Of a stretch of DNA of 32,086 bases, positions 12,207 to 32,086 are shown piece after piece; position 1 is the stretch's first letter; every line of letters begins with the position of its first letter. Location: contig VYDB01000119.1 of the NCBI GenBank assembly GCA_009843635.1, positions 1 to 32,086 on the forward strand, given 5' to 3'. The position numbers and the translations under genes were made by a program. Origin of the DNA: Gammaproteobacteria bacterium (GTDB lineage Bacteria > Pseudomonadota > Gammaproteobacteria > Pseudomonadales > Azotimanducaceae). Below the pieces are notes generated by a model. It made no database searches. It had not been told where the DNA came from and saw nothing but the letters and a program-made list of their open reading frames with translations.

Positions 12207-12286
12207 TGGTCAGGCCACCTAGCCACCTTACGCATACCAGTAGGCTCAGTCAACTGCTATTCCTGACCAGTGCTATTCCTGACCAG
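12207..12286 (-). promoter_or_regulatory. Operon promoter bracketed by three TGGTCAGG sites
   Basis: On the minus strand, TTGACT (12253-12248) and TAAGGT (12230-12225) are separated by 17 bp, a plausible sigma-70 promoter for the TonB receptor operon. TGGTCAGG occurs twice in direct orientation just upstream (minus strand, at 12285-12278 and 12269-12262) and once inverted downstream (plus strand 12207-12214). The two upstream copies belong to a 16-bp tandem duplication at 12255-12286 that also covers the stop codon of the oxygenase gene. The layout suits a dimeric regulator, perhaps the operon's GntR protein. Confidence 0.45.
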
Positions 12287-13673: not shown

Positions 13674-13796
13674 TTGCTCTGCCTTAGCTGATGGTTATCT
13701 CGCCGAGAGGCTAGATTACCGGGCGCAGGCCGATCGGTGAAGCCCGTTGCCGGATGGCATCGACAACGCACGGACCGAGTCCACGGGAGGAATGGC

Positions 13797-14507
13797 ATGG
13801 GAACCTACGATGCTGCCGCTGCGCTCAGCTCAATCGACGCCAACGTCGTCTGGGTGCTGGCATTTTTCGCGATTGCGGCCGTGGCGACCTTTGTCTATCT
13901 CCTGCAGTCCTTCAAGCTGGCGCGTGCCCATGAGGCTTACTCCTCCCCACTCCCCGCTGTGGGCTGGTTCGCCGTTCACGACCTGCACTTCGTGCTTCTC
14001 TATGATCTGTGGTTTGACGTTTACGACCATTGGTGGGTGAAGGCTTGGTGGGTTGCCCTGGTTTTCACAACCCTGATCGAGTTCGCCCTGGTTGGGATGA
14101 TCATCAAGTACGGCCGCAAGGAACTCGCGCCTTGGGCCTCCGACAGGCAATTCCTCGGCTTGGTCGCCTTGGGCACGGCTGCGATTGGCGTTCTATGGCT
14201 GCTCGTCAAGGACTCCATGGACGACCCCCTTTTCCTGATCTCCTTCCCAATCACCGCCTTCTGGGCCGTGCCCTTCAGCACCGCATTGATGCTCAGGCGG
14301 AACTCACAAAGGGGGCAGTCCACAATCTTGCCCATCTGCAGTGTGTTCATCGTCGGGTCCTTTCAAGGCGCCCTTTGGTTCATCGACCCGTTTTTCCGAT
14401 CGCCCGTTTTCCTGATGTTCACGGCCATGGGGGTCTCATGGGCGTTGGTGAACCTGTGGATGCTGAGGCGCCTGCCAGCCTACTCCCCGCAGGCCAGTCC
14501 AGCATGA
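13797..14507 (+). CDS. Unknown multi-pass membrane protein
   Basis: Not recognised. From the ATG at 13797, preceded by GGGAGG about 6 nt upstream, it is 236 residues with about 7 hydrophobic segments rich in Trp, Phe and Tyr. Charged and aromatic loops include HDLHFVLLYDLWFDVYDHWW. The frame is open upstream to 13737, but the Shine-Dalgarno supports the later start. No signal peptide cleavage site or catalytic motif is evident. It diverges from the Rieske oxygenase gene, sharing a ~120-bp promoter region, which hints at a linked role such as a membrane anchor, transporter or sensor for the same substrate. Its composition is already less GC-rich than the genes to its left. Confidence 0.75.
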   Translation: MGTYDAAAALSSIDANVVWVLAFFAIAAVATFVYLLQSFKLARAHEAYSSPLPAVGWFAVHDLHFVLLYDLWFDVYDHWWVKAWWVALVFTTLIEFALVGMIIKYGRKELAPWASDRQFLGLVALGTAAIGVLWLLVKDSMDDPLFLISFPITAFWAVPFSTALMLRRNSQRGQSTILPICSVFIVGSFQGALWFIDPFFRSPVFLMFTAMGVSWALVNLWMLRRLPAYSPQASPA

Positions 14508-14519
14508 GGGTGATTTTAG

Positions 14520-14978
14520 CTACGTAGGCGTAAGTCGAATAACCGGTATCTCACGAACACCTTCCGATTGGGCTTCGTAGTCCCGGTAAGGGGGGAAGAG
14601 TTCAACAAGCTCATTCCAAATCGATTCTCGGTCGGTCCCCTCGATTAGTTCAGGCACTATCCCAGAGTGTTCTTGCGCCACCTGAATCCACCCTTTGCCT
14701 TCCGACATGAGGTTTAGGTACCAATGTGGATGCTCTGGAGCCCCGCCTCTGGATCCAACGACCACAAAGCTCTTGTCGTCCTGCACATAAATCAGTGGGA
14801 TAGTGGATGGCTTACCGGACTTCCTCCCGATAGTTGTGAGCAGTAGCGTCGGCACCACCTTGTCACCCCCAACTGGTCTAGAGTCCCACATATGACCCTT
14901 CCTACCACCTGACTGTATGTACTCTGTCAGGTGCCGGACTATCCATCGCTGCAAGCTGCCATTTATGACTGGCTTCAC
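14520..14978 (-). CDS. Deazaflavin-dependent (Ddn-type) nitroreductase-family protein
   Basis: A small split-barrel flavin/deazaflavin oxidoreductase. Typical family features are LLLTTIGRKSGKPSTIPLIY, then FVVVGSRGGAPEHPHWYLNL, with a C-terminal PPYRDYEAQ segment. Members reduce substrates with F420H2 or bind FMN or heme; the cofactor cannot be decided here. I chose the GTG at 14978 because AGGGG lies 7 nt upstream, giving 152 residues. The frame is open to a TTG at 15008 that lacks any ribosome site. It is divergent from the sigma-factor gene across an AT-rich region with two palindromic operators. With the luciferase-like enzyme at 25.7 kb, it is one of two possible F420-linked enzymes in this island. 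Confidence 0.85.
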   Translation of the reverse strand: MKPVINGSLQRWIVRHLTEYIQSGGRKGHMWDSRPVGGDKVVPTLLLTTIGRKSGKPSTIPLIYVQDDKSFVVVGSRGGAPEHPHWYLNLMSEGKGWIQVAQEHSGIVPELIEGTDRESIWNELVELFPPYRDYEAQSEGVREIPVIRLTPT

Positions 14979-15018
14979 AGTCACACCCCTGATTCGCGGA
15001 AAATCCAATTTTACAAGA

Positions 15019-15676: not shown

Positions 15677-16228
15677 TTAAGCCGCATTATCGATTCTGTT
15701 GTCCCGAAGCCTGCAGAATCGGTCCAAATGGAATTCCGTGCCACCAAATTTCTGCGCGAGCACGACAATGCGCTTTAGGTGGTGACCCACTTCGCACTCG
15801 TCAGTTGTTGCAATAGCACCATGAAGCTGAAAAGCAGAGTGGGCAATTTCCCGGGCACTTCTATCACAACGCACCTTTAAGGCTGCCAAGTACTCCGAAG
15901 CCATCGGGTTCCCATCTCTTAAGTGAATAGCCGCCGCGTAGAGTAATGATGTCGCTAGTTCGAACGCGACATGCATGTCAGCCATTGTGTGTTGCAGCAC
16001 CTGAAAATCACTCAGCGCGCTGCCGAACTGACGTCGCTGCCCTGTGTAGGCAATGGTCAGTTCATTCAGCCGGCGCATCATGCCTACCTGTTCTGAACAA
16101 GCAGCTAGAATAGCCATGTCGGTCACCTGTTCCAGAATCGAAGTGCTTTCCGACTGCGTCAACAATGCATCAGCGCCCACGAGCACCTGGTTGGCAGAAA
16201 CCTCTGCAGCGTTAGGAGTCTCGTCAAA
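15677..16228 (-). pseudogene. Acyl-CoA dehydrogenase, C-terminal fragment of a broken gene
   Basis: This frame is open from 16228 to its stop at 15677 and encodes the C-terminal helical half of an acyl-CoA dehydrogenase: FDETPNAAEVSANQVLVG, AYTGQRRQFGSALSDFQVLQ, LHGAIATTDECEVGHHLKR, KFGGTEFHLDRFCRLRD. A possible internal start is GTG at 16186. It continues the fragment at 16234-16905, but TAG, TAA and TGA close all three minus-strand frames within 16224-16236, so simple frameshifting cannot join them. Together they would give about 400 residues, the normal size. The C-terminal part resembles non-catalytic or atypical subunits of heteromeric acyl-CoA dehydrogenases. It may be a decayed gene, or two polypeptides could still fold together. 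Confidence 0.72.
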
Positions 16229-16233
16229 TTAAA

Positions 16234-16905
16234 CTATCCAACAACCCGCCCAATGCCTTGCAAATGCTGGCTTCCGTCACATGAAACGGACAATTTATTT
16301 TGGCGAGAGTCCTTACTGCCATCGAACGTGCGATAATTGTAAAGATCCAACGCATCGCGATCGACCAGAAAAAGGCCCAGACGCTCGCCATCGATCATGG
16401 CAGATAGCACAATCTTATCTGCGGCAGCAGCATTGTAGACAACACTCTTTGAACCCTGGATCTTGTATCCGCCTTCACAAGTCTCAGCTTGCGTGGAAAC
16501 AGCGTCTAGACTGTATGACGAGCCGCGTTCCTCGTGAGCAAGAGCAATATGAACAGAACCGGATATTATGCGCTCAACCAAGCCTTTGAATCGGTCATCG
16601 TGCAAGACATCCAACACCTGCGCCCCAAGTGCCAAAGACTCGAGAAATGGCTCGGTCACTCTGTAGTATCCGAGCTGTTCAAACAATATCAAGGTATCTA
16701 TGGGATCACCCGAGTAGCCGCCAAATTCCACACTAAATGGTATTGAGAGGTAGCCCAGCTCTGACACTTCGTTCCAGATGGCCGTATCGAATCCATCACG
16801 ACTACTTCTCGACTCTGCCCGATCGGAGAACTGGTAACTGCCGCGCAAGTACTTCTCAATGCTCGTACGAAGGACAATTTGGTATTCAGAAAACTCAAAG
16901 TTCAT
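16234..16905 (-). pseudogene. Acyl-CoA dehydrogenase, N-terminal fragment of a broken gene
   Basis: A 223-residue frame with the N-terminal helical and beta-barrel parts of an acyl-CoA dehydrogenase: EVSELGYLSIPFSVEFGGYS, FEQLGYYRVTEPFLES, IALAHEERGSS, YKIQGSKSVVYNAAAADKIV. It starts with ATG at 16905, 9 bp after the stop of the intact acyl-CoA dehydrogenase gene. Its last ~25 residues before the TAG at 16236-16234 do not look like the family, suggesting an insertion or scrambled junction. The original gene probably formed a two-subunit complex with its neighbour, as in steroid-side-chain degradation systems; that is inference from adjacency. Confidence 0.72.
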
Positions 16906-16914
16906 CAGCTATGC

Positions 16915-18117
16915 CTAGTTCCTGAGAATGGCTTTGGCGATGATGTTTCTCTGGATTTGTGCTGACCCTCCGTAGATCGTGGCGGCACGATTGTTCAGGT
17001 AGTAGTTCGGAATCGTAAGCGAAGCCTCATCACCAACATGTTCACCCACATAGCTTGGATCTAGCACGTGGTTCTGAGATACCGAAAATCCAGTGCCGAT
17101 AGCCTGCAGCGCTAGTTCGTCTACCCGTTGCCCCAGCTCCGTCCCGGCAAGCTTGACTAGTGATGAAAGCACACCAGGGTTGTCACCGACTCTAAGGGTT
17201 GCACTCATCCTGTTCTCGGTCTGCTGCAAGGCTAGTGAATCTATTTCCAATAGACCCAAACTAGAGCGAAATTTCGGTTCCTCGATGTATGAGCACCCAG
17301 AATGGTGTCGATATAGATGAGCGTTTCTTCGAACGACTTTCAGGCGCCTGTTAATGATCGAATACTGGCTGATCAGTCCCCGCTCAAATTCCAAGAGAAA
17401 CCTTGCTATTTCCCACCCTTGGTTTTCTTCTCCCACTAAGTTGGTTGCTGGAATTCGAACGTTGTCAAAGAACACCTGGCACTGTTCAATCTCTCCGTCC
17501 AACCCCAAGATTTCCTTCCGGGTAACGCCAGGAGTATCAAGATCAACAAGAACAAAGCTGATCCCAGCCTGCGGCCTACCTTCCGCGGACGTTCTCACGA
17601 GGCAGAAGATCTTGTTGGAGCGATGAGCGTAGCTCGTCCAGATCTTGGTACCATCTATGACGTACTCATCACCTTGCTTGACCGCTCTTGTTCGCAATGA
17701 AGCCAAGTCCGAACCCGAGTTGGGTTCGGAAAAACCTTGAGCCCAGACATCCTGCCCATCCAATATTCTAGGCAGTAACTTTTTTTGCCCCTCGCTTCCG
17801 TACTTCATTAAAACCGGACCGAGCAACAGTATTCCTGACATCTGCAGAGTCGGTGCACCCGACTCAACTAGTATCTCCTTGAAGATCATTCGCTGGGTGT
17901 AGCTCCACCCTGGCCCCCCGTATTCCTCCGGCCAATCAGGAGCAGCCCATCCTTGAGCGTTGAGAACTTTCTGCCATGCCATCGATGCATCAAAGTCCGA
18001 GAAGATGCTCGTAGTTAGCTCTCCAGCCCGACGCAGCTTAGCTGATAGGTTCTCGTTTACAAACTGACGGACTTGGTCAGCAAACAGGAGGTCCTCCGGG
18101 GGTACGTCTAAATCCAC
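16915..18117 (-). CDS. Acyl-CoA dehydrogenase
   Basis: FAD-dependent alpha,beta-dehydrogenation of an acyl-CoA. The start is taken as GTG at 18117, with GGAG 9 nt upstream, giving 400 residues, the family norm. The frame is open to a TTG at 18279, but that extension has no family likeness. Motifs seen: WAAPDWPEEYGGPGWS, WAQGFSEPNSGSDLASLRTR (FAD/substrate loop), IDGTKIWTSYAH, DNVRIPATNLVGEENQGW, and the C-terminal NNRAATIYGGSAQIQRNIIA. The glutamate in LEFERG sits where isovaleryl-CoA-type enzymes keep the catalytic base; the YEGT position used by medium-chain enzymes is YGGS here. It is co-directional with the broken homologue and divergent from the acyl-CoA ligase gene. Confidence 0.92.
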   Translation of the reverse strand: MDLDVPPEDLLFADQVRQFVNENLSAKLRRAGELTTSIFSDFDASMAWQKVLNAQGWAAPDWPEEYGGPGWSYTQRMIFKEILVESGAPTLQMSGILLLGPVLMKYGSEGQKKLLPRILDGQDVWAQGFSEPNSGSDLASLRTRAVKQGDEYVIDGTKIWTSYAHRSNKIFCLVRTSAEGRPQAGISFVLVDLDTPGVTRKEILGLDGEIEQCQVFFDNVRIPATNLVGEENQGWEIARFLLEFERGLISQYSIINRRLKVVRRNAHLYRHHSGCSYIEEPKFRSSLGLLEIDSLALQQTENRMSATLRVGDNPGVLSSLVKLAGTELGQRVDELALQAIGTGFSVSQNHVLDPSYVGEHVGDEASLTIPNYYLNNRAATIYGGSAQIQRNIIAKAILRN

Positions 18118-18476
18118 TTGACTATGCTCCAAAACGGAATAGCTTAATCCACAAGGTTGTAGACGAATCTTCCTGCCTTTCACCCTAGTACCGGGCTTGT
18201 TCACTTGATCTGGGGAGAACGCTAAACTGATTCGTCTACGGTATAGATGAACACCAATCCTGTCCGGGCAAAGTTCCAAACAGCGGAAGTCCTCCTTTGC
18301 ATTGCAATGGATTATTGATGAAACCGGGTGTCTCCAACTTGAACGCGAACCCGGGGAATGGCCTCCATTTGGTAATTTCGTCGCCGAGGGGGTTGGATTT
18401 CAGCCGGAGTGGGGGGTGTTTTCGCAGATCATGAATTGCCTACTCGGCTTGCTGATTCCGGAACGAGGAAGAGATC
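18118..18476. other. Divergent intergenic region
   Basis: Lies between the start of the acyl-CoA dehydrogenase and the acyl-CoA ligase. The minus-strand frame stays open to 18279, but without homology. A 10-bp palindrome CATTGCAATG lies at 18300-18309, a possible operator. A small plus-strand frame at 18302-18508 overlaps the ligase start and shows nothing recognisable. I see no confident -35/-10 pair; promoters for both flanking genes must lie here. Confidence 0.5.
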
Positions 18477-20075
18477 ATGAACCTATCCACCTCCCACACA
18501 ACAGCTGACCCGGCCGCCGAAGTGGAGAACGTTACCGTGGGTGCGCTGCTACGAAGGGTCGCGGAACAGACTCCCGAACAAGTCGCAGTTGTCGAGTGCC
18601 GCGTGGGCAAAACCACAGAACGAACGCTCAACTATCAGCAGTTGCTGGAATCCGCGGAGGCAATTGGGAGGTGGGCGCTTCTGTCACATGAACCGGGTGA
18701 CCACATTGGAATCTGGGCACCCAACTCTCTTGATTGGTACCTCTTGCAGCTAGGTTTTAGCCTGGCGGGCATAACTCTAGTGACCGTCAATCCAGCTTTT
18801 TTGAAGGAAGAAGCCGATTACGTACTTAACCACTCTGGCTGTAAAACCGTGATCACCGTTCCCGACTATCGGGGTGCTGCGCTCACTGAAATCGCTCAAG
18901 ATATTGCGAACAACTCGGCCACCCTCGCGAACGTTCTAGATTTGAACGAAGTTCCTTCCCTAGTCAAAAAGGCCGACACACAAGCCATTGCGCTGCCAGA
19001 TGTCAGCCCAGACTCACCCTGCATGATTCAGTACACATCGGGCACAACGGGTACTCCGAAAGGAGCAACCCTGGGACACGCGGCGGTAGTAAATTACGCA
19101 AAGTTTGCGGAACTCGGACTGGAACTACCCAAAGGATCCAAGTGGGTCAATTTCATGCCCATGTTCCACACCGGGGGCTGCATCTACATGGCCTTAGGTT
19201 GTCTGTGGAACAAGGGGGTCCATCTACTGGTGGACTCTTTCGACGCAGAGTACACGCTACAGTTGATAGAAGAGCATCGCGCTCACTTCCTCTGGTGTGT
19301 GCCAACCATGTACTTCACTATGTTCGAACATCCGAACTTTGAAAAGTATGACAAGTCTTCCCTAGTTGTCGTCGCTTCGGGTGCCACGACAGTGCCTCCT
19401 GAACTCGTCACTCGCCTTGAAACTCATTTTACCGGCGAATTCATCATGCTATTCGGGCAAACCGAGTGCGGGATGATATGTCAGACTACGCGAGGCGACA
19501 CACTTGAGCACAAGTCTCGTACCGTAGGTAGGGCCATGCCTCATACCGAGCTGAAAATCGCCAGTGTCGAAACAGGAGATCCGCTGCCAGTAGGTGAGGT
19601 TGGGGAAATATGCGTGCGTAGCCCATCGGTCATGCTCGGTTATCATCAAAGGCCAGAAGCGACGGACGCTGCGATCGATCAAGATGGTTGGCTGCACACA
19701 GGCGACCTAGGCGTCATGGCAGCCGACGGGTACTGCGCGATCACAGGACGCATCAAGGACATGATCATCCGGGGCGGCGAGAACATATTCCCACGCGAGA
19801 TCGAGGACGTACTCATAGAGCATCCAGATGTGCTTGATATCTCCGTGTTCGGGATTCCCGACAAAAGATGGGGTGAACAAGTTGCAGCCGCCGTCCGCGT
19901 GGCCCCTGGAGCAACTAGCACGGATCAGGAGCTCGCTGATTATCTGCGCGACAAACTAGCGCGTCACAAGATTCCTCGCGCCTGGATGAGAATGGATGCG
20001 TTTCCGGTCACCGCCTCTGGAAAAGTAAAGAAGTTTGAACTCAGGGATCAATACGTCAGAAACAACGTCACTTAA
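18477..20075 (+). CDS. Acyl-CoA synthetase (AMP-forming, FadD-like)
   Basis: A 532-residue member of the ANL superfamily that activates a carboxylic acid to its CoA thioester with ATP. The phosphate-binding loop YTSGTTGTPKG is at 186-196. Further motifs are LFGQTECGM, MLGYHQRPEATD, DGWLHTGDLG, RIKDMIIRGGENIFPREIE and the C-terminal SGKVKKFEL with the likely catalytic lysine K516. ATG at 18477 follows GAGGAAGAG. It is the entry step for the acyl-CoA dehydrogenases and mutase of the island. Chain length or ring type of the substrate cannot be told; medium/long-chain or cyclic acids are all possible. Its stop is 1 bp from the convergent cupin gene, with no room for a dedicated terminator. Confidence 0.94.
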   Translation: MNLSTSHTTADPAAEVENVTVGALLRRVAEQTPEQVAVVECRVGKTTERTLNYQQLLESAEAIGRWALLSHEPGDHIGIWAPNSLDWYLLQLGFSLAGITLVTVNPAFLKEEADYVLNHSGCKTVITVPDYRGAALTEIAQDIANNSATLANVLDLNEVPSLVKKADTQAIALPDVSPDSPCMIQYTSGTTGTPKGATLGHAAVVNYAKFAELGLELPKGSKWVNFMPMFHTGGCIYMALGCLWNKGVHLLVDSFDAEYTLQLIEEHRAHFLWCVPTMYFTMFEHPNFEKYDKSSLVVVASGATTVPPELVTRLETHFTGEFIMLFGQTECGMICQTTRGDTLEHKSRTVGRAMPHTELKIASVETGDPLPVGEVGEICVRSPSVMLGYHQRPEATDAAIDQDGWLHTGDLGVMAADGYCAITGRIKDMIIRGGENIFPREIEDVLIEHPDVLDISVFGIPDKRWGEQVAAAVRVAPGATSTDQELADYLRDKLARHKIPRAWMRMDAFPVTASGKVKKFELRDQYVRNNVT

Positions 20076-21741: not shown

Positions 21742-22545
21742 CTAGCCCTTTGCCGAATGAGCGCTCTCTGGCCAATGTTGGCGAGAGAGTACAACACTGC
21801 AGATCCAAATGACAGTAAAGCAACAAAGAACTGCGGCAATTCCCGAAAGCTGCAGCAAGACACCGGAGCCACTGATGGGTGAGTTCATTACGAGGAACAT
21901 AGGCCAACCACTTCCCAAATGACCCATCACCGCACCAATCGGTGCAAGTGGGATAACCACAAGCTTCGTCGTTCCCTTCAAGTTTGGAAGCAGGAGTGCG
22001 ATCAGCGTAATCCCCACCAAGGCTGCGGTTGTATTCAAGAACGGCCACGTGAATGGTGCTAGAAATGCAAATGGCCACAGGGGCTGAGGTTCATAGTAAA
22101 CCCAGAGGCCAGAGACAACCGGATATATCTCAAATAGGATATAGATCGCAACGGATGCCAAGCTGTAAGCCCAAACATATCGCGTACTAACGCTCCCGCC
22201 TTCCAATTTCGGCAGGAAAATGAGGTAAGTCACGCCAAACGCAATGACGTAGGCGAAAAGCATGTGTAGCGGTAGAATTCTATCAACTGCGGAGAAGACC
22301 ACGGTTGCTCCAACAGGTGGATGAATCAGGTGGCCGAGATATCCGATGATGGGTTCTAGAAAACTAGCCGCCGCCGCACCGACCATCAGATATACCGGCA
22401 GAAGTGAACGCGTTTTGTAGGCCATGCGGAATCCATAAAGGAGCACAACAGCAGCAATTGCTCCAAACAGCCAGATCGCAAACTCTTGAACTTCCATCGG
22501 CATCTCTGCCAAAGGGGTCGGAGGGATGTGACTATTCGATTCCAT
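21742..22545 (-). CDS. Unknown multi-pass membrane protein
   Basis: Not recognised. A 267-residue protein with about 7-8 hydrophobic helices. Notable segments are SFLEPIIGYLGHLIHPPVGA, FEIYPVVSGLWVYYEPQPLW and GHLGSGWPMFLVMNS; Glu, His and Trp in or near membrane segments could bind a metal, heme or a lipid. ATG at 22545 with AAGGCG 8 nt upstream. It stands alone between convergent EthD and a long divergent intergenic region before the second TonB receptor. A transporter, membrane oxidoreductase or lipid-modifying role are all possible; size and topology loosely resemble the other unknown membrane protein (13797-14507), but no sequence identity is obvious. Confidence 0.75.
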   Translation of the reverse strand: MESNSHIPPTPLAEMPMEVQEFAIWLFGAIAAVVLLYGFRMAYKTRSLLPVYLMVGAAAASFLEPIIGYLGHLIHPPVGATVVFSAVDRILPLHMLFAYVIAFGVTYLIFLPKLEGGSVSTRYVWAYSLASVAIYILFEIYPVVSGLWVYYEPQPLWPFAFLAPFTWPFLNTTAALVGITLIALLLPNLKGTTKLVVIPLAPIGAVMGHLGSGWPMFLVMNSPISGSGVLLQLSGIAAVLCCFTVIWICSVVLSRQHWPESAHSAKG

Positions 22546-23134: not shown

Positions 23135-25537
23135 ATGAAGAACTCCATTCAGTCAGTAACGTTCATGGCCATCGTTACCTTAATCACTAGCGGAAATGTT
23201 GCAGCGCAAGAGCTAGAAGAGATTGTTGTTGTCGCACAAAAGCGCACTCAAAATCTCCAGGACGTCCCGGCAGCTATTGAGGTGATTTCAGGTGAAAAGC
23301 TTGACAATTCTGGTATCTCAGACTTGTCTGAACTTCATAACATCTCCCCAAGTTATGCCATTAACGCCAGCGGTGCAGGCAACCAGCCCTATATACGAGG
23401 TGTTGGATCCGGCATCAACGGCAATAGCGTTGATTCAATCGTCAGTCTGTATGTCGATGGTGTCTTCGTTCCAAGAAGCTACGCTCTCCTAACTGGTATA
23501 GGAGAGGTTAACGACTTCGAGTCCGTGGAGATTCTCAAGGGTCCTCAGGGGACCCTATACGGTCGCAACGCCACGGGAGGCGCGATCGTAATCGAAACAT
23601 TTTCGCCTGTAGTGGGAGAGGAGTTCAGCGGCAGCGCTACCGTTTCGATCGGCGACTACGGCCAGCGAGAATTCGCTGTAAGGTTCAGCGGCAGCTTGTC
23701 TGACACTCTGGCAGCTACCGCGTCATACATGGACTACGAAAACGACGGATTCGTTGAAAACATTCGTGCAGGCGACGATTTTGATAGCAAAGACGGATGG
23801 ACCGCCTCCACCAAAATTGTTTATGAACCGACCGATAGCGCCAGCTTTGAGTTTTCTGCGTTCGTCGCAGAAGATGACAATCGATCCTTCCTCGTCCACC
23901 AAGTGGGCCAAACGGACAACGAACTTGCGAACGCACTACTACCAGGGTTTGGATTAAACAATGCTCAGGTAGGTTACTTTGGTGCCCTCACACAACTCTT
24001 GCCGGTAGCTGGTGTTGCTCCCACAAATCCTGCAGTTATCGGCGCTGTGCTGCCACAGATTGCGGGTATTCGTTTTCCTGGTGGTGCGGGTGATGGAAAC
24101 GTTGAAAACAACAGGTCTGGGCATCAGGTTGGCGGTCGCGGTGCTTTGGGGATCGGCGCTGGTCCAAGTATGGGTGAAAACAACACTGGACAAGTTTCCG
24201 AAAACACTCAGCTATCACTGCGTGCAACCTTCAATTTCAATCGATTTGACCTAGTTTCTGTATCAGCCTACGGCGATTTCGATCAATCATCGACTCTCGA
24301 TGTGTTCCGAGCCCTGCCAGAAACTCTGCCCGATCTAACCGTCCTAGCCCCACTCGCAGCCAATCCGGCCGCTGCTCTACCCTTACTGACCCTATTCAAT
24401 CAGGGCAACATCGGCTTTTCCGGTTCCACAGATTCTGATTTTCGATCACAGGAACTCTACATTGCATCAACCCAGAGCGCAGTAGAGTGGATCGCCGGCA
24501 TCTACTACTTCAAGGAAGAGTTTGATGCAGCCGGGGTAACGAATGATCTCTTCGGCTTAAACGTACCAAGTTCCTTCGCGGCGATGGAAACTGAATCCCT
24601 AGCCGTATTCGGCGAGGCGACGGTTCCGTTAACGGACGCGCTATCGACCACACTTGGGATTCGCTACACGGATGACCAAAACGACCTGACTAACCGCAAC
24701 GCAGAGGTGGGCCTACCAGTTGTCGGTCCGCGCACGAGAAGCAACGACAACGACGAGTTCACCTATACGGCCAAACTCACCTACATCGGTAAAAACGCGA
24801 CGTACTACGGGGGCATCACCACGGGTTACAAAGCTGGCATCTTCAATACCGGTGATCCCAACTCAGACCCTGCGGAACCCGAGGACATTACTTCCTATGA
24901 AGTGGGTTTCAAAGCGAGCCTCGCCGACAACAGAGTTCGACTAAATGGCGCTGCATTCTTCTATGACTATGAGAACATACAGTTGAACGTGCTCGACGCC
25001 ATTGATGGTTCAACAAGGGTTGCCAATGAGTCAGAAGCTGAAGTCTTGGGATTTGAGCTGGACATCGAAGCCTTGGTCGGCGATCGAACCACTCTATTCG
25101 GCGCTGTCACGTTCCTCGACTCTGAATACACTGAGGATGCTCTGGTTGTTGCAACCGGTCAGATTCAGCAAATCACGGGAAATGTTCTGCCCTATTCTCC
25201 GGATATCAACCTTGTGGCCGGCTTACGCTATACGATCCCCCTCAGCTTTGGTGAGTTGTCACTGAATCTATCAGCCAACTACAACTCGGGGCAGTTCTAC
25301 GACCAATCCAACCTTCTTGGCAGTGGTCAAGATGGCGACGAAGACGACTCGTTTACTGTCGCCAAGGCAAGCATTACCTATCGTTCGGCAGACGACAGGT
25401 GGTTGCTCAGAGGATACGTCAACAACCTAACTGATGAAGAGTATATGGCGGGTGGCTTCGACTCTGGCGGTCTTTTCCAGATGACCAACCAAGCACGTCC
25501 ACGCCACTATGCTGTCACTGCTAGCTACAGATTCTGA
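23135..25537 (+). CDS. TonB-dependent outer-membrane receptor
   Basis: An 800-residue outer-membrane importer. Residues 1 to about 24 are a signal peptide ending NVAAQ; the TonB box follows (ELEEIVVVAQKR). The plug contains IRGVGSGINGNSVDSIVSLY and ESVEILKGPQGTLYGRNATG. The barrel ends at ...PRHYAVTASYRF with the terminal Phe typical of outer-membrane proteins. Low-complexity Gly/Asn loops around residues 310-350 are likely extracellular. It lies in the catabolic island beside oxygenases rather than iron genes, so the cargo is probably the hydrophobic growth substrate; in sphingomonads and marine gammaproteobacteria such receptors often flank aromatic, terpene or steroid degradation genes. 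The ATG at 23135 has AGG about 9 nt upstream. Confidence 0.93.
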   Translation: MKNSIQSVTFMAIVTLITSGNVAAQELEEIVVVAQKRTQNLQDVPAAIEVISGEKLDNSGISDLSELHNISPSYAINASGAGNQPYIRGVGSGINGNSVDSIVSLYVDGVFVPRSYALLTGIGEVNDFESVEILKGPQGTLYGRNATGGAIVIETFSPVVGEEFSGSATVSIGDYGQREFAVRFSGSLSDTLAATASYMDYENDGFVENIRAGDDFDSKDGWTASTKIVYEPTDSASFEFSAFVAEDDNRSFLVHQVGQTDNELANALLPGFGLNNAQVGYFGALTQLLPVAGVAPTNPAVIGAVLPQIAGIRFPGGAGDGNVENNRSGHQVGGRGALGIGAGPSMGENNTGQVSENTQLSLRATFNFNRFDLVSVSAYGDFDQSSTLDVFRALPETLPDLTVLAPLAANPAAALPLLTLFNQGNIGFSGSTDSDFRSQELYIASTQSAVEWIAGIYYFKEEFDAAGVTNDLFGLNVPSSFAAMETESLAVFGEATVPLTDALSTTLGIRYTDDQNDLTNRNAEVGLPVVGPRTRSNDNDEFTYTAKLTYIGKNATYYGGITTGYKAGIFNTGDPNSDPAEPEDITSYEVGFKASLADNRVRLNGAAFFYDYENIQLNVLDAIDGSTRVANESEAEVLGFELDIEALVGDRTTLFGAVTFLDSEYTEDALVVATGQIQQITGNVLPYSPDINLVAGLRYTIPLSFGELSLNLSANYNSGQFYDQSNLLGSGQDGDEDDSFTVAKASITYRSADDRWLLRGYVNNLTDEEYMAGGFDSGGLFQMTNQARPRHYAVTASYRF

Positions 25538-25660: not shown

Positions 25661-26698
25661 TCAACGAGCGAAGGTTTTGCAGATTCGCACGTAAGTATCG
25701 TAGCTCTCTTCCTCCTTCAGCGGCGGCACATAAGGTGTGTGGAGAACCGCATGTGGGACAAATTCCTGGTAGTACTTAAATTGTTCACGACACTCGCCAG
25801 GTGTTCCAACAACTGCATATCGTTCCAATAGAACATCAGGCACACATTCAGCCAATGCAGGTGGGCCACCCTCCATCAGACCAGCCATAACTTTGTCTCG
25901 CTCACCGAGTAATCCGTCTCTCTTCAGGACAAAATCACCGAGCGGATGGCATACATACGTGCCGACCTGAATGCGCGCTCTGTAAAGAGCTGTTTCCCGG
26001 TCCTCATGAGGGCTGCAAATAATGTACTGGACAATGTCAACTTCGCCCTGGTCCCGATTGGCTTTGGTTGCACCTTCTGCAAGCCCGGGAATAAGGTGAT
26101 TCTTCATCAACTCAGGAGTTGGCAAGAACCCCATAATCCCGTCACACAGCTCTCCTGCTAGCCTCAGCATCGCAGGTTGAATTGCCCCGAGGTAGAGCGG
26201 GAAGTCAGGCATTGGGAACGGTCGTTGACCAAACGGATTCATTGGGGGAATGCAAAACTTGTAGAACTCTCCTTCAAAATCAAACTGTGCACCACTGCGG
26301 GCATGTTCGAGGTACATTTTCATGATCTTAATGTATTCGCGCATTCGCGTCGCTGGACGGTCAATTTCAACCCCGTTAAAGAACTCGTTAAAGCTCGCTC
26401 CTCCGGGACCAATGACCAACCTTAGCCGCCCGTTCGACAACTCGTTGACGTCCATTGCCGCGTTCGACATTTCGAATGGAGACCGTTGGGCCGCAGCCGC
26501 TAAACCGATGGCCAAATCAATCTTGCTAGTGGTAACAGCGGATGTTGCTTGTTGGACAAAACCATTGCGGTAGGCTTCATAACCCCAAACCGAATCGAAT
26601 CCAGATTCCTCGGCAATCTTTGCCATTTCCCCGAACCGATGCATGGGTTGATTCACACCAGGCATGGATACACCTAGTCTAAAATAACGGTTGTTCAT
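25661..26698 (-). CDS. Luciferase-like (LLM class) flavin-dependent oxidoreductase
   Basis: A 345-residue TIM-barrel enzyme using FMNH2 or F420. Seen: RLGVSMPGVNQPMHRFGEMA at the N-terminus, IAEESGFDSVWGYEAY, MDVNELSNGRLRLVIGPGG, FPLYLGAIQPAMLRLAGELC and VVGTPGECREQFKYY. The length is typical. It could be a monooxygenase attacking the growth substrate (Baeyer-Villiger or hydroxylation type) or an F420-dependent dehydrogenase; the Ddn-type gene at 14.5 kb makes the F420 option worth considering. ATG at 26698 has a strong GAGGAG 9 nt upstream. It follows the Rieske oxygenase gene by about 120 bp in the same direction and is probably co-transcribed. Confidence 0.9.
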   Translation of the reverse strand: MNNRYFRLGVSMPGVNQPMHRFGEMAKIAEESGFDSVWGYEAYRNGFVQQATSAVTTSKIDLAIGLAAAAQRSPFEMSNAAMDVNELSNGRLRLVIGPGGASFNEFFNGVEIDRPATRMREYIKIMKMYLEHARSGAQFDFEGEFYKFCIPPMNPFGQRPFPMPDFPLYLGAIQPAMLRLAGELCDGIMGFLPTPELMKNHLIPGLAEGATKANRDQGEVDIVQYIICSPHEDRETALYRARIQVGTYVCHPLGDFVLKRDGLLGERDKVMAGLMEGGPPALAECVPDVLLERYAVVGTPGECREQFKYYQEFVPHAVLHTPYVPPLKEEESYDTYVRICKTFAR

Positions 26699-26820: not shown

Positions 26821-28242
26821 CTACTTCGCCCGTCCGATCAATCTGTCTATTTCTGCCTGATAGTGCCTGATACGAACCTCGGCCTCCGACAGTAGCGGGC
26901 CTTCAAAAGCTTCCGACATCATGCCTTTGTGGACATTGGGCACACGTTGGGCGTCTTGCCAGAGAACGTGTCCCCAAACCTGCGAATTACAATCTTCAGG
27001 CACGCCCCACCTTGGTTTGTCTCTATCCGGTCTCTCAGAACCATCCCAGCCAGGCGGCCCAAAGCTATCCGGTCCAAAGTTGTTGATGTCCATGACGCGG
27101 ATTTCTGGATCACTCACCGGCAAACACAAGGTCAACGCCCAGTAATAGCTCAAGTTCGGATCCGTTGGATGAGGCTTCCACTGCTGGATCAGCAGCCCAT
27201 CCGAAAAACAGTTCAACGTGACGTTTGGAAACAAGTGATAGTTCCAATCGTCCGTAATTTGATCATCAGTGAGAAGGTCAAAAAACCCATAGCCGTGCTT
27301 CCTACCCCACTCTCTCTTGGTCTCGACCAAGGCCGACTTGTATTCGTACCCTTTCAGGCCCTCATACTTTTCGGGACTTCCACCATAAAGCTCGATGAAT
27401 GCCTTTTGTGCGTCATTGACAGCTTCACGGTCTGGCCAACACAAAGGGGCATTACCGAGTTCAAGGAACATGCGACTCATTCCGTTCTCATATAGGTCGT
27501 ATTGAACGTCGTTGATTGTCGTCATGACGGGACGCAATTCGGGATGCACGTCTTCAGAGTGGTAGAACTCAATGAATGCATCCATTGCGGTTTTCCAGTT
27601 CGCCGGCCAATCCGCTTCGAAATCACGCAGGACCCGAAACTCACCAAATGGGTAAGCTTTCAGGTGGTCGGGGATCACATCAAGATACTCGACCAACGGA
27701 CGCGCCTCGCCATCGATGTTGATGAAGATAATGGAATTCCAAACTTCGCATCGCACCTTTTTTAAGCACAAGGGGCCGGACAGCACCTCCTCCCTGAAGA
27801 TTTCTCTGTTCTTTACTTTGATGTTGTTGCCATCAAGATCGAACTTCCAGCCATGAAAGGTGCAATAGAAGTTCTCACCCATGGTGCCAAAGTCGTCTCT
27901 GACGAGTTGATTTCCTCGGTGCGGGCAGACATTGAAGTAAGCCTTGAGGTCTGCCTCTGTTTCACCTGTCTGCACGACGACAAAAGACTCGGGACCGATG
28001 TCGTACTTGAGGTAGCTGCCTTTGGAGGGCAAATCCATGGTGACACCCGCCACAAGCCAAGTCTTGCGGAATACGTGCTCCCATTCCAACGCCCACTCTT
28101 CGCTCGACAGGTATCTGTCCTTGCTCGGACGGTCAGTTCCATAATCGATGTAATCTGCCTTTTGCTCGATATTCCCTTCAGATGCCCGCGAGGGATAGGA
28201 GACATAACCTTCTCTGTAATCGTACTCTGCGTTCTTGCTCAT
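26821..28242 (-). CDS. Rieske non-heme iron oxygenase, alpha subunit
   Basis: A 473-residue ring-hydroxylating-type oxygenase. Rieske ligands: C106-P-H108 (VCPHRGNQL) and C127-x2-H130 (CTFHGWKF). Iron site: N215-W-K, then F-Y-H228-x4-H233, with a late Asp in LWQDAQRVPN as likely third ligand. It is a different paralogue from the one at 12.3-13.7 kb: the spacing of motifs is similar, but the sequence between them differs widely. No beta subunit, ferredoxin or reductase is nearby. ATG at 28242 with AAGG upstream. It is divergent from the FAD oxidoreductase operon across 164 bp, which hints at shared control and consecutive steps on one substrate. Confidence 0.93.
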   Translation of the reverse strand: MSKNAEYDYREGYVSYPSRASEGNIEQKADYIDYGTDRPSKDRYLSSEEWALEWEHVFRKTWLVAGVTMDLPSKGSYLKYDIGPESFVVVQTGETEADLKAYFNVCPHRGNQLVRDDFGTMGENFYCTFHGWKFDLDGNNIKVKNREIFREEVLSGPLCLKKVRCEVWNSIIFINIDGEARPLVEYLDVIPDHLKAYPFGEFRVLRDFEADWPANWKTAMDAFIEFYHSEDVHPELRPVMTTINDVQYDLYENGMSRMFLELGNAPLCWPDREAVNDAQKAFIELYGGSPEKYEGLKGYEYKSALVETKREWGRKHGYGFFDLLTDDQITDDWNYHLFPNVTLNCFSDGLLIQQWKPHPTDPNLSYYWALTLCLPVSDPEIRVMDINNFGPDSFGPPGWDGSERPDRDKPRWGVPEDCNSQVWGHVLWQDAQRVPNVHKGMMSEAFEGPLLSEAEVRIRHYQAEIDRLIGRAK

Positions 28243-28406: not shown

Positions 28407-29990
28407 GTGACAAAACCATATGATGTTGTATGCATTGGTGCCGGCAGCAATACGCTCGTCCTCGCAGCCTACATGGCTAAGGCAGGTAAAAGCGTTTTAC
28501 TGTTAGAAAAGAATGACCAAGCCGGAGGCGGGGTTATTTCGGTAGAAATTGCGCCAGGGTTTACTCATGACCCACATGCAACTGGCTATATCTCGTTCCA
28601 GGCGAATCCTGCAATCAAGGATGATGAACTTGGTCTCTTTAGTAGGTTCGGTCTCGAGACTTTCACTTACGAGGCTAGCTTTGCGTCCATTTTCGAATCG
28701 GGTGAAGGCCTAGTTACCTATACGGATATCGATCGCTCTTGCGAGGGCATCGCCAAGTACTCGCAGAAAGACGCTGACAGCTATCGAGCCTTCGTTGCCA
28801 AGGCAAAACAGATACTTCCTATCTTAGGCCGAGGATCGTCCACACCGCCCCTGCCAACCGGGCGTTTCTTTTCGCTTCTGGAACAAAGTGAAATCGGCCG
28901 CGAGCTCCAAAGCGCTATGTTCAAGAGCGCATACGACGTGATCGAGAGTCTATTCGAAACTGTGGAAGTGAAGCTGCACTACCTAAAGTGGTGCGCTGAA
29001 GTGATGGAAAATCCTGAAACCAACGGTACTGGTATCGTCATGTACCAACTATGCGGGCTAGCTCACACCTATGAGGCACTAGGAATCACGGGCGGGTCAA
29101 AAAACCTCACGAACGCCTTAGTCCGATGCATTGAGCGCTACGGTGGTGAGATTCGTCTCAATAGTGAAGTCGCAAAGGTAGATATCGAGTCCGGCAATGC
29201 GACCGGAGTCACCCTCGCTACGGGTGAGCATATCGCCGCTAGCGATGCAATCGTGGGCTGCATTCACCCTTGGCACTTGGGCGACGTCGTACCTGGGGTT
29301 GATCCGAACATTGCCGCCAGAGCGCGCCAAACCAAACTAAGCGGGCACGGCGCACTCAACCAACAAATCGCACTCACTGAGCTTCCAGAGTTTAGGGCCG
29401 GATCCGAGTACCGAGACGCGATGTGCGTCGAATACGTGCCGCTGGATCTAGACGGTGTCAGGAAGACTTTCGATCAGTACCGTTTCGGTGAAATCCCAAA
29501 GCGCTGCATTAGCCCTATGACGATGGTGCATTCGCTAAAGGACCCTTCCCGTGCGCCAGAAGGACAATGTGCGATGTATCTGTACCACTTCGCACCGCTG
29601 GAATTGAAGGAAGGTGGTATCGAGGCGTGGTCTCAGCAGCGAGAGACCTTCGCAGATGCAATATGGGAAGCATTTGCCAGCTTCACCACAAACATGGACC
29701 AAGACAAAATAATAGCTCGACTCATCGAAACTCCACTGGAACACCACCGTCACTCAAACAGCATGGTGAACGGCGACATTATCGGGTTAGGCACCACGAT
29801 TGGCCAGCTGATGGGGCAACGACCCATCCCCGAGCTCGCCAACTACAGAATTCCAGGCTTGGAGAAACTGTACTTGGCTGGTCCCTTTATGCATCCAGGT
29901 GGGACCGTGCTCTTTGGCGGTAGAGCGACTGCCATAAAGATGTGCCAGGACATGGACATCGATCTACACAAAGTTTTCGAATTCATTTAG
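28407..29990 (+). CDS. Phytoene-dehydrogenase-like FAD-dependent oxidoreductase
   Basis: A 527-residue flavoprotein of the CrtI/PYROXD2-like amine-oxidase superfamily. The N-terminal dinucleotide-binding loop is VVCIGAGSNTLVLAAYMA (GAGSNT at 11-16), followed by LLLEKNDQAGGGVISVE. The C-terminal FAD motif is LYLAGPFMHPGGTVLFGGRA. It desaturates, saturates or isomerises a hydrophobic isoprenoid-like or polycyclic substrate, possibly at the membrane. GTG at 28407 with GAGGG 9 nt upstream. No carotenoid synthesis genes are around, and it leads an operon with a B12 mutase, so a catabolic role is more likely than pigment synthesis. It is followed by a small gene 11 bp downstream. Confidence 0.9.
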   Translation: MTKPYDVVCIGAGSNTLVLAAYMAKAGKSVLLLEKNDQAGGGVISVEIAPGFTHDPHATGYISFQANPAIKDDELGLFSRFGLETFTYEASFASIFESGEGLVTYTDIDRSCEGIAKYSQKDADSYRAFVAKAKQILPILGRGSSTPPLPTGRFFSLLEQSEIGRELQSAMFKSAYDVIESLFETVEVKLHYLKWCAEVMENPETNGTGIVMYQLCGLAHTYEALGITGGSKNLTNALVRCIERYGGEIRLNSEVAKVDIESGNATGVTLATGEHIAASDAIVGCIHPWHLGDVVPGVDPNIAARARQTKLSGHGALNQQIALTELPEFRAGSEYRDAMCVEYVPLDLDGVRKTFDQYRFGEIPKRCISPMTMVHSLKDPSRAPEGQCAMYLYHFAPLELKEGGIEAWSQQRETFADAIWEAFASFTTNMDQDKIIARLIETPLEHHRHSNSMVNGDIIGLGTTIGQLMGQRPIPELANYRIPGLEKLYLAGPFMHPGGTVLFGGRATAIKMCQDMDIDLHKVFEFI

Positions 29991-30237: not shown

Positions 30238-31878
30238 GTGAAAAACGAACAGAGAGAAGCCATAGAGCGGGTTAAAGTCCAGCTATCTAGAACGCGCTCT
30301 TGGGCAGGGCTCGATGTCGATGCGTTCTATAAGCCTAGGGCGTCGGATGACACATACGACTCCGAACTGAGCGATCCCGGTTCATTTCCCTATACGAGAG
30401 GTATTTCACCATCCGGCTATCGTGAGCGAATGTGGACCCTTAGGAACATTGTTGGATATGGTTCGCCGAAGGACACCTTGGAAGGGATTCGAACCGCCTT
30501 ATCAGCCGGCACCGCCGGCATAAACGTGGTCCCAGACGCACTGACACAACAGGCGATAGACCCAGACCACCCTGCTTTCGGCGTGGAAGTTGGATCCGAG
30601 GGCTGCTCCATTGCGTGTGCAAGCGACATGGAACAGTTAACCGAGGATATCGACATCACAAAAACCGGCGTCGCATATCACTATGGGATGCTGGCATATG
30701 CGGTGTCGGCCGCGACAGCCAAGCGACGCGGGATTGAACTGGACAAGATGCGCGGGTCGTCAATGCCAGATCACCTTTCCTATTCACTCTCAGGCTGGGG
30801 ACAGCATCTGTTGCCTGCAGAGTTTGCACATAAGGCCACACTCGACTATGTCGAGTTCGCTACAAAAAACAGTCCGCTATGGGCGCTAGCAATTCCCCAA
30901 GCCTATGATCTTCGAGAGCGTGGTGCTTCGCCGTGGGGTGAAGTCGCTTACGGCATGGCAATCATGAACCAAACTATGTCGGATCTAATCGAGCGCGGAT
31001 GTAGTATTGACGACATCGCCCCTAGCCTAGCCTGGGTATCGACTTCGGACATCGATTTCTTTGAAGAGGTCGCCAAGTTTCGAGTGATTCGAAGAGTATG
31101 GGCTCGAACAATGAAAGAACGATTTGGAGCCAAAGACTCAAGGTCGCTTTCAGTGCGCATCGCATGTCATACGGCTGGAAAGTCGCTTGTGTACCAGCAA
31201 CCCCTAAATAATCTCACCAGAGTTGCAATTCAATCGTTTGCCGCATTGTGCGGCGGAGTTCAGTCACTAGAGTCTTGCACATACGATGAACCCATAAGCA
31301 TCCCCACGCCCGAGGCACGAGAGCTTGCTACCAGAACCCAACAAATTCTCGCGCACGAGGTAGGCGCAGCACGTACTGTAGACCCACTGGGTGGTAGCTA
31401 CTACGTTGAGGCGCTTACCGACGAAGTTGAGGCTCGAGCCATGGAATTGCTCAACCAAATCGAAGAGATAGGCATCATCAATGCCGTCAGCGATGGCAGC
31501 ATTGAAGCGGCTATGGACGAGAACAATCTCATCAAAGAACGTGAAATCAACAACTGCGAGCGAATTGTCGTCGGACATAACGAATTCATACCCGAGGATG
31601 AGCCTCAGCCAAAGCGTTTCTCGTTCTCTAGAGAACGTGTGAAAAAGCACGTCGAGAAGTTCGTGCAGATGAAAAAGGATCGCAACAATGCCGAACTAGA
31701 ATCAAGGCTGAGGCGCCTCTACCAAACCGCCGCGGGGAACACCAACTTTCACGAAGCAATGATCGACGCATTCGTGGCCAATGGATCAATTGGCGAAGTG
31801 TGGGGAACCGTACGACTGGCGAACGGACTCTCGTATGACCCGTTCAATGTAATCAAACACCCATTTTCCTTGGAATGA
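30238..31878 (+). CDS. Coenzyme-B12-dependent acyl-CoA mutase, large subunit (atypical)
   Basis: 546 residues, matching the large subunits of split mutases such as isobutyryl-CoA and 2-hydroxyisobutyryl-CoA mutases; the B12-binding domain is encoded by the next gene. The family is plain from PYTRGISPSGYRERMWTLRN, GIRTALSAGTAGINVV and EVGAARTVDPLGGSYYVEAL. The active site is unusual. The methylmalonyl-CoA mutase Tyr89 position is Ile71, Gln197 is Met176, the Arg207 area has no Arg (Gly186/Trp187), and His244 is Asp224 in PQAYDLRERG. Ile at the Tyr89 position is the hallmark of 2-hydroxyisobutyryl-CoA mutase. Alignments were made by eye. It probably rearranges the carbon skeleton of a non-standard acyl-CoA. 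GTG start at 30238 with CAGG upstream; its stop overlaps the next ATG (ATGA). Confidence 0.9.
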   Translation: MKNEQREAIERVKVQLSRTRSWAGLDVDAFYKPRASDDTYDSELSDPGSFPYTRGISPSGYRERMWTLRNIVGYGSPKDTLEGIRTALSAGTAGINVVPDALTQQAIDPDHPAFGVEVGSEGCSIACASDMEQLTEDIDITKTGVAYHYGMLAYAVSAATAKRRGIELDKMRGSSMPDHLSYSLSGWGQHLLPAEFAHKATLDYVEFATKNSPLWALAIPQAYDLRERGASPWGEVAYGMAIMNQTMSDLIERGCSIDDIAPSLAWVSTSDIDFFEEVAKFRVIRRVWARTMKERFGAKDSRSLSVRIACHTAGKSLVYQQPLNNLTRVAIQSFAALCGGVQSLESCTYDEPISIPTPEARELATRTQQILAHEVGAARTVDPLGGSYYVEALTDEVEARAMELLNQIEEIGIINAVSDGSIEAAMDENNLIKEREINNCERIVVGHNEFIPEDEPQPKRFSFSRERVKKHVEKFVQMKKDRNNAELESRLRRLYQTAAGNTNFHEAMIDAFVANGSIGEVWGTVRLANGLSYDPFNVIKHPFSLE

Positions 31879-32086
31879 GCGCCATGTCTGAGGAACCAAG
31901 AATTCGCTGCTTGTTGGGCATGCTCGGCACTGACGTCCACAGCAAGGGTGTCCGTACTCTCGCTCAATTGCTCCGAGATGCTGGCATAGAAGTGATTTAC
32001 ATTGGGGAACACAACACGGTCCCAGGCATGGTTAGGACTCTCGCCAAAATAAACTGTTCATTTCAGGTCTCTGGGGGACAGCGTGT
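31875..32086 (+). CDS. B12-binding small subunit of the acyl-CoA mutase (partial)
   Basis: Runs off the right edge; 70 codons are visible. The ATG at 31875 overlaps the mutase stop as ATGA; a second in-frame ATG is at 31884. The visible part has the cobalamin-binding signature DVHSKG (D-x-H-x-x-G), whose histidine replaces dimethylbenzimidazole as lower cobalt ligand, followed by the typical LAQLLRDAGIEVIYIGEHNT. This makes a two-subunit mutase. The later sequence of the domain is outside the window. Confidence 0.88.
   Translation, partial: MSAMSEEPRIRCLLGMLGTDVHSKGVRTLAQLLRDAGIEVIYIGEHNTVPGMVRTLAKINCSFQVSGGQR

Follow-up and report, generated by a model that had tools for sequence, protein, structure and literature searches.

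The contig VYDB01000119.1 (assembly GCA_009843635.1, a gammaproteobacterium of the Azotimanducaceae) was analysed over its full length of 32,086 nucleotides, referred to here as the window. At its right end lie two overlapping genes that probably encode a heteromeric adenosylcobalamin (AdoCbl)-dependent acyl-CoA mutase, consisting of a mutase barrel and a separate B12 domain. The contig (G000:C120) belongs to a genome of 4.49 Mb that is 96% complete. The gene of the large, substrate-binding subunit (30238–31878, + strand) is an intact open reading frame (ORF) of 546 amino acids with a GTG start codon at 30238 and a stop codon at 31876–31878; it forms a separate ORF without a GTPase fusion. Its stop codon overlaps by four bases with the start of the small, cobalamin-binding subunit (31875–32086, + strand), of which the 5' part including the motif LGMLGTDVHSKG is present. 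This second ORF departs from the family consensus at about position 32031, where it is cut by the end of an insertion element with a 26-base terminal repeat (32031–32086).

The large subunit matched the mutase family profile PF01642 across the whole domain (426.5 bits, cut-off 22.1) and TIGR00641 with 366.6 bits (cut-off 303.8). The profiles of methylmalonyl-CoA mutase (MCM; NF006944, 295.7 bits, cut-off 876) and of IcmF (NF045497, 141.4 bits, cut-off 1500) were matched below their cut-offs. In a phmmer search of the PDB, 2-hydroxyisobutyryl-CoA mutase (HCM, 4r3u) was the top match, followed by the MCMs of human, M. tuberculosis, and P. shermanii. For the small subunit, the full-length copy of a Hydrocarboniphaga metagenome-assembled genome (MAG; L033) scored 68.8 bits with PF02310, and the partial copy of the window 26.5 bits, which is below the cut-off of 32.1.

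Together with the window gene, at least 12 mutase loci in 10 genomes or sequence records form a clade, in which the 11 other large subunits are 55–59% identical to that of the window. A scan of 84,980 species genomes retrieved four of these loci at 57–58% identity, the other 76 of the best 80 of 577 matches being at most 38% identical; the size of the clade is thus a lower bound. The best plasmid-borne mutase (57% identity) was found on a plasmid of Paraburkholderia sp. PGU19, followed by the other 29 listed of 426 matches with 37% or less. Searching whole genomes yielded a second copy each in G660 and G661, and family-wide searches added two further genomes each in the families of Sphingobium faniae and Hydrocarboniphaga. 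The hosts are hence sphingomonads, members of the Hydrocarboniphaga family, a betaproteobacterial MAG, the Paraburkholderia plasmid, and the genome of the window. The loci are designated PGU (L112, the PGU19 plasmid), FAN (G658, S. faniae), AUR (G659, Aurantiacibacter rhizosphaerae), HYD1 and HYD2 (G660, two diverged copies of the Hydrocarboniphaga MAG on L033 and L130), BET1 and BET2 (G661, two diverged copies of the betaproteobacterial MAG on L032 and L131), and G736, G754, G982, and G985 with one mutase each. Among 293 genomes of the window's own order, searched at E <= 1e-60, only mutases of 28–33% identity were found besides the window gene, and a phylum sample of 398 genomes (E <= 1e-110) contained no clade member beyond it. 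In the 277 genomes of the betaproteobacterium's family, the clade mutase was present in that MAG itself and in no other genome.

In a maximum-likelihood tree of 106 mutases (104 of 120 mutase sequences plus two PDB references, with 16 of 24 rows longer than 640 amino acids left out), the 12 clade loci were monophyletic with a Shimodaira–Hasegawa-like approximate likelihood ratio test (SH-aLRT) support of 100 and a stem of 2.33 changes per site. Their branch is separate from those of HCM (4r3u) and MCM, and the gene lies outside every known mutase clade sampled. The tree is a quick one with SH-aLRT as its sole support and with long branches flagged, the placement of L035 as sister being weak (63); it was calculated without an ethylmalonyl-CoA mutase reference, and IcmF was compared by sequence profile and fold only. 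Membership in the MCM, HCM, or IcmF groups was rejected on the basis of the profile scores, the tree, and the pocket residues.

For the comparison of the active site, the 12 clade rows were aligned with 41 other mutases, which were picked by hand from 84 candidates of 480–620 amino acids, at positions of our choice. The numbers follow P. shermanii MCM, with Tyr89 anchored on the Y89F entry 5req. A sequence-only reading of the window had placed Ile71, Met176, Gly186/Trp187, and Asp224 at the positions of Tyr89, Gln197, Arg207, and His244. Both the phmmer and the MAFFT alignments agreed with this assignment, Trp187 being a one-residue insertion after Gly186, and the pattern is kept across the clade. 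The Tyr89 site is occupied by Ile in 11 members and by Met in one (mainly Tyr in 19 and Phe in 15 of the 41 others), the Gln197 site by Met in all 12 (Gln in 38 others), the Arg207 site by Gly in ten and Val in two, followed by Trp in ten of the 12 (mainly Arg in 19 and Gln in 17 others), and the His244 site by Asp in ten and Asn in two (His in 36 others). His244 and Gln197 are missing from all 12, and the Arg207 site is never occupied by Arg or Gln. The window protein shows I, G, and D at the positions of the MCM signature Tyr89, Arg207, and His244; it also has I71 and G186 at the Tyr89 and Arg207 sites, where Phe and Gln mark isobutyryl-CoA mutase and IcmF.

The rebuilding of the pocket extends beyond these four sites. 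Thirteen of the compared positions are invariant in the clade and differ from most other mutases (A116V, S164A, T166H giving His148, T195S, Q197M, N198P, S241Q, R283S, S285A, F287V, H328A, Q330H giving His311, and N366C), and S114N is nearly invariant (10 of 12 rows). The corresponding pocket residues of the window protein are I71, N96, V98, A146, H148, S174, M176, P177, G186, W187, Q221, D224, S263, A265, V267, A309, H311, and C347. A scan of residues 40–399 without preselected positions identified 26 sites that are invariant in the clade and at which at least 30 of the 41 others agree on a different residue. The site of the HCM-specific Asp (Asp117), which corresponds to the substitution A116V, is Val in all 12 rows (V98 in the window). 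Arg82, Arg87, Asp118, Asp199, Tyr243, Gln361, and Glu370 are family residues that the clade retains, Glu370 and Tyr243 in 12 of 12 rows. In the small subunit, the sequence DVHSKG of the window represents the cobalamin-binding motif DxHxxG, which was found at all 12 loci; the Lys604 site within MLGTDVHxKG is Met throughout. Among 108 other mutase genes, 60 had Lys at this site, 43 showed no motif in the scan, and five gave chance-like matches with another residue. With His244 and Gln197 as contacts of the thioester and Arg283, Asn236, His328, and Gln330 as contacts of the pantetheine, the clade differs from other mutases at the substrate end, in both sets of contacts, and in part of the adenosyl site; cobalamin binding and the catalytic core are retained.

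An AlphaFold2 model of the large subunit alone, calculated from 52 aligned rows, displayed the mutase barrel with a mean predicted local distance difference test value (pLDDT) of 90.2 and a predicted template-modelling score of 0.91. Most of the changed residues are located on, or at most three residues from, the eight barrel strands of the model (67–72, 94–97, 145–147, 173–175, 215–221, 264–270, 307–312, and 343–345), and Gly186/Trp187 lies at the end of the helix 180–187. The possibility that the canonical Tyr/Arg/His set is concealed by a misplaced alignment was rejected, since phmmer, MAFFT, and the strand positions of the model concur against it. The best Foldseek match of the model was HCM (4r3u_A, template-modelling score 0.89, 31% identity), followed by MCM and IcmF. 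The ratio of nonsynonymous to synonymous substitutions (dN/dS) was 0.06–0.14 for five pairwise comparisons within the clade (dS 0.67–1.9), and the clade mutase is thus under purifying selection. By these comparisons, the window mutase belongs to a rare, separate subfamily of acyl-CoA mutases whose substrate pocket is almost entirely rebuilt.

The genome of the window also encodes a canonical fused MCM (G000:C58:31801-33333, a 737-amino-acid frame), so the window mutase is probably not the propionate enzyme of its host. G658, G659, and G661 likewise carry a long mutase of the canonical MCM type with 29–30% identity. Three lone, long-branched mutases in the comparison set (L039:6908-8530, L035:962-2611, and L077:9886-11526) have Asp or Asn at the His244 site and altered neighbouring pocket motifs; they may represent further specificities.

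The neighbourhoods of the 12 mutases were compared using greedily called ORFs, where the absence of a family may reflect an uncalled gene, as it did for the Rieske gene of G985. The window contains a Rieske non-heme iron oxygenase alpha subunit (26821–28242, − strand; family F03). Clustering assigned this family to eight of the 12 regions, and a direct search revealed it in a ninth, G985. Relatives with at least 50% identity were present in exactly the mutase-bearing genomes of the two families searched, that is, in the same three of 298 genomes of the S. faniae family and the same three of 58 of the Hydrocarboniphaga family. The 50% threshold was set post hoc from a gap in the 298-genome sample (next match 47%), for which up to five candidates per genome were scored; in the 58-genome sample, a preset limit of 1e-90 gave exactly the three genomes. 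Because the centre genome of each sample was preselected as a mutase holder, two additional coincidences per sample count as independent, and the sampled genomes are relatives of one another; neither the preselection nor the kinship enters the chance figures of 2e-7 and 3e-5. In S. faniae, the Rieske gene lies on a different contig from the mutase, and its product is 90% identical to the AUR copy. Among plasmids, the best Rieske match (51%; the other 14 listed of 920 records reached 34–38%) was on the record with the best mutase. Both mutase copies of G660 are flanked by their own Rieske gene and ligase.

The AMP-dependent acyl-CoA ligase of the window (18477–20075, + strand; family F02) has counterparts in 10 of the 12 neighbourhoods, counting its own. 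The ligase gene adjoins the mutase in HYD1, HYD2, and G982, is one gene off in BET2, G754, G736, and G985, and is separated from it by 10–14 kb in PGU, AUR, and the window. A gene for a MeaB chaperone (F07) occurs in six neighbourhoods. Acyl-CoA dehydrogenases, enoyl-CoA hydratase (ECH)/MaoC hydratases, an HMGS-like and thiolase pair, a CoA-transferase, and E1/E2 components of a 2-oxoacid dehydrogenase recur in subsets, and an HpcH/CitE-type C–C lyase in three loci. In the window, an acyl-CoA dehydrogenase (16915–18279, − strand; F05), which may catalyse a later step, and a TonB-dependent receptor-like protein (23135–25537, + strand; F06), which may take up the substrate, were named from their sequences; each family is found in six of the 12 neighbourhoods. 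The fullest annotated cluster is that of the PGU plasmid, comprising DUF1302, DUF1329, and MMPL proteins, which are typical of clusters for hydrophobic substrates, as well as acyl-CoA dehydrogenases, MeaB, and a cobalamin adenosyltransferase. At 4362–7372 of this plasmid (L112) lies an E1alpha/E1beta/lipoyl/E2 2-oxoacid dehydrogenase set, which partly recurs in BET1, G754, FAN, and HYD1.

Directly upstream of the mutase, the window encodes a CrtO/amine-oxidase-like FAD oxidoreductase (28407–29990, + strand; F08), which is found in five of the 12 neighbourhoods. It was rejected as an obligate partner: with up to four candidates scored per genome, matches at E <= 1e-90 occurred in 27 of 298 genomes and were absent from two of the three mutase genomes, G736 and G754. 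An LLM-class (luciferase-like) oxidoreductase (25661–26698, − strand) is located between the receptor and the Rieske gene. A second Rieske oxygenase (12273–13673, − strand; F27) possibly belongs to the same pathway, since a 53% identical enzyme is encoded at a distance of about 13.5 kb from the G982 mutase. Two membrane-like proteins (21742–22545, − strand, and 13737–14507, + strand) had no Pfam match; in both Hydrocarboniphaga loci, the gene of a 40% identical relative of the former immediately precedes the Rieske gene, and a relative of these proteins is encoded about 2.3 kb from the S. faniae Rieske gene. The ORF at 14520–15008 (− strand) encodes a member of the F420H2-dependent quinone reductase family (PF04075).

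The contig ends at 32086, and its final 56 bases open with the 26-base repeat. The same repeat forms the imperfect inverted repeats (19 of 23 positions matching) that bound a 106-bp element at 16211–16316, inside a split acyl-CoA dehydrogenase ORF (15677–16186 and 16234–16905, − strand). The remainder of the small subunit was sought in the genome of the window and was not found; further copies of the element end were absent from 40 stretches of 20 of the 152 contigs and from plasmids. It looks as if either an insertion element interrupts the operon here or the repeat caused a break in the assembly. Since the small subunit is cut at 32031, the window copy of the mutase may be broken. This limits the claims on this organism and leaves those on the clade untouched.

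Taken together, we consider it somewhat more probable than its alternatives combined (about 0.6) that the clade is a mutase subfamily of new specificity that, following a Rieske and a ligase step, relocates the CO-SCoA group of a hindered and probably quaternary carbon in the catabolism of a hydrophobic compound. Comparison establishes the enzyme class and the pocket, and association the linkage with the Rieske enzyme, whereas the substrate and the reaction are inferences. As the clade retains the cofactor core and DxHxxG, it would be expected to use standard AdoCbl radical chemistry. The non-polar pocket (Ile71, Val98, Met176, and Trp187), together with the relocated polar contacts, suggests a bulky acyl-CoA without a carboxylate. 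On the most economical route, the Rieske enzyme would oxidise a substituent on the hindered carbon, and the ligase would form the CoA ester of the oxidised substituent. After AdoCbl homolysis and abstraction of a hydrogen atom from the methyl carbon, a 1,2-shift would carry the CO-SCoA group from the quaternary or tertiary alpha carbon to the neighbouring methyl, as IcmF does with pivalyl-CoA/isovaleryl-CoA. In binding the thioester, His148, Gln221, Asp224, and His311 would take over from His244, Gln197, and Arg283, and Ile71, Val98, Met176, and Trp187 would line the acyl end. With the group shifted, dehydrogenation, hydration, and C–C cleavage would become possible, and the product could enter beta-oxidation via the linked acyl-CoA dehydrogenases, MaoC/ECH hydratases, and the HpcH/CitE-type lyase of the three loci. 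The starting compound is likely a hydrophobic terpenoid- or steroid-like molecule. The sequence-only reading had suggested a new specificity, perhaps for a branched, hydroxylated, or cyclic acyl-CoA; of this, a clade separate from HCM and MCM with a conserved rebuilt pocket is supported and an HCM-like hydroxyl-binding site is not, and the neighbouring genes make a hydrophobic, quaternary acyl-CoA with a branched or cyclic skeleton plausible.

Several observations weigh against this interpretation. The members of the clade are known from their genes alone, and the loss of both His244 and Gln197 could result in low or different activity. Even the binding of CoA is a deduction, as the presumed pantetheine contacts Arg283, Asn236, His328, and Gln330 are changed as well. 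The Rieske step and the idea of a quaternary carbon rest on gene association, and the Rieske enzyme could act on another atom; moreover, no Rieske gene was detected in the 12.9 and 15 kb neighbourhoods of G661 (the rest of that genome was not searched), and G862 has a 47% identical Rieske relative without the mutase. The FAN and BET1 neighbourhoods contain no F02 ligase, and the window ligase, 10 kb from the mutase, is 39–43% identical to the others, several of which share 62–80% with each other. The FAD enzyme adjoining the mutase does not co-occur with it, and the CitE-type lyase reached 169 bits with the RipC profile, whose cut-off is 375. In the window, the pathway may be decaying, given the interrupted small subunit and the related 106-bp element in the acyl-CoA dehydrogenase.

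A more far-reaching version is possible, with odds clearly below even. In this version, the new mutase class, the dedicated Rieske enzyme, and the CoA ligase would form a three-step module that dismantles quaternary carbons of polycyclic terpenoids or steroid-like molecules, and the catalytic His would have been relocated from the His244 strand to His148 or His311. The module would act on gem-dimethyl or angular-methyl centres or on resin-acid-type carboxyls; the substituent would be oxidised to a carboxyl group, activated, and moved onto the sister methyl, whereupon the carbon would leave as acetyl-CoA and a ketone would remain.

It is rather unlikely that the protein is instead a far-diverged HCM/RCM relative acting on a larger 2-hydroxy- or otherwise oxygenated acyl-CoA whose hydroxyl stems from the Rieske reaction. 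The nearest solved structure is HCM, Ile occupies the Tyr89 position in both, His148, Gln221, and Asp224 are newly acquired polar residues to which a hydroxyl could bind, and Rieske enzymes can hydroxylate. However, the HCM-specific Asp is replaced by Val in all members, the clade falls outside the HCM branch, and the linked genes resemble a long pathway for hydrophobic compounds rather than the short hcl-hcmAB operon described in PMC7176365. There is a small chance that an ordinary substrate class (alkylmalonyl/succinyl or isobutyryl) has been kept in a special lineage with mutually compensating pocket changes; the conserved fold and cofactor core would agree with such drift, but none of the 12 has the diagnostic residues at the Arg207, His244, and Gln197 sites, and the window host and three others possess a mutase of the canonical MCM type besides. 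It is equally improbable that the protein has little catalytic activity or is no mutase at all, being for instance a subunit for regulation or binding or the product of a decaying gene: many canonical residues are lost, P. shermanii MutA shows that the family can lose catalysis, and the small subunit of the window is interrupted, but the clade is under purifying selection, Glu370, Tyr243, and DxHxxG are present in all 12 members, MeaB is encoded in six of the 12 neighbourhoods, and the Rieske gene co-occurs with the mutase.

Quaternary carbons block beta-oxidation, and few enzymes handle such carbons. To our knowledge, comparable B12 chemistry on quaternary carbons is limited to the pivalyl-CoA and 2-hydroxyisobutyryl-CoA mutases. 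The present subfamily, whose different pocket is maintained by selection, points to a catabolic route not yet characterised and to a mutase scaffold for engineering; its association with a single Rieske oxygenase in the two families checked suggests an undescribed bacterial way of breaking down bulky branched molecules. As His244, Gln197, Asn366, and Lys604 are all replaced, the clade also tests how far a supposedly essential mutase active site is dispensable. The titles and abstract openings listed for open-licence PMC articles, a set with subscription papers mostly outside it and several of the lists being part of a larger number of matches, contained no report of the rebuilt pocket, of a Rieske-plus-mutase module, or of B12 mutases in the catabolism of terpenoids or quaternary carbons.

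Among the known systems, the alkylmalonyl-CoA mutases ActD and MatB of actinonin and matlystatin biosynthesis are similar in that a mutase was proposed for a bulky acyl-CoA; by description, they are set apart by actinomycete biosynthetic clusters with carboxylase and reductase genes and by a free-carboxylate substrate, ActD being assigned to the HCM subclass in PMC5719088. With MCM (human MMUT and P. shermanii MutB), the clade shares the PF01642 barrel, Glu370, Tyr243, Arg82/Arg87, and cobalamin binding by DxHxxG, whereas Tyr89, Gln197, Arg207, and His244 are lacking and the B12 domain is on its own chain. HCM (HcmAB, 4r3u) resembles the clade in its separate large and small subunits, its fold, the Ile at the Tyr89 position, and the neighbouring genes for a CoA ligase and a MeaB-type GTPase (operon as given in PMC7176365). 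It differs in sequence (31% identity), in its branch, and in the Asp that is Val in the clade; the positions of Gln197, His244, Arg283, Asn366, and Lys604 are all changed in the clade, whose genes lie in a long, Rieske-linked catabolic cluster. IcmF (PDB 5cjw and others) has a matching fold, a GTPase fusion that the clade lacks, a different pocket, and a profile that the clade protein matches with less than a tenth of the cut-off score; its pivalyl-CoA/isovaleryl-CoA reaction, which according to PMC10481361 moves the CO-SCoA group off a quaternary carbon, is the chemistry proposed here for the clade.

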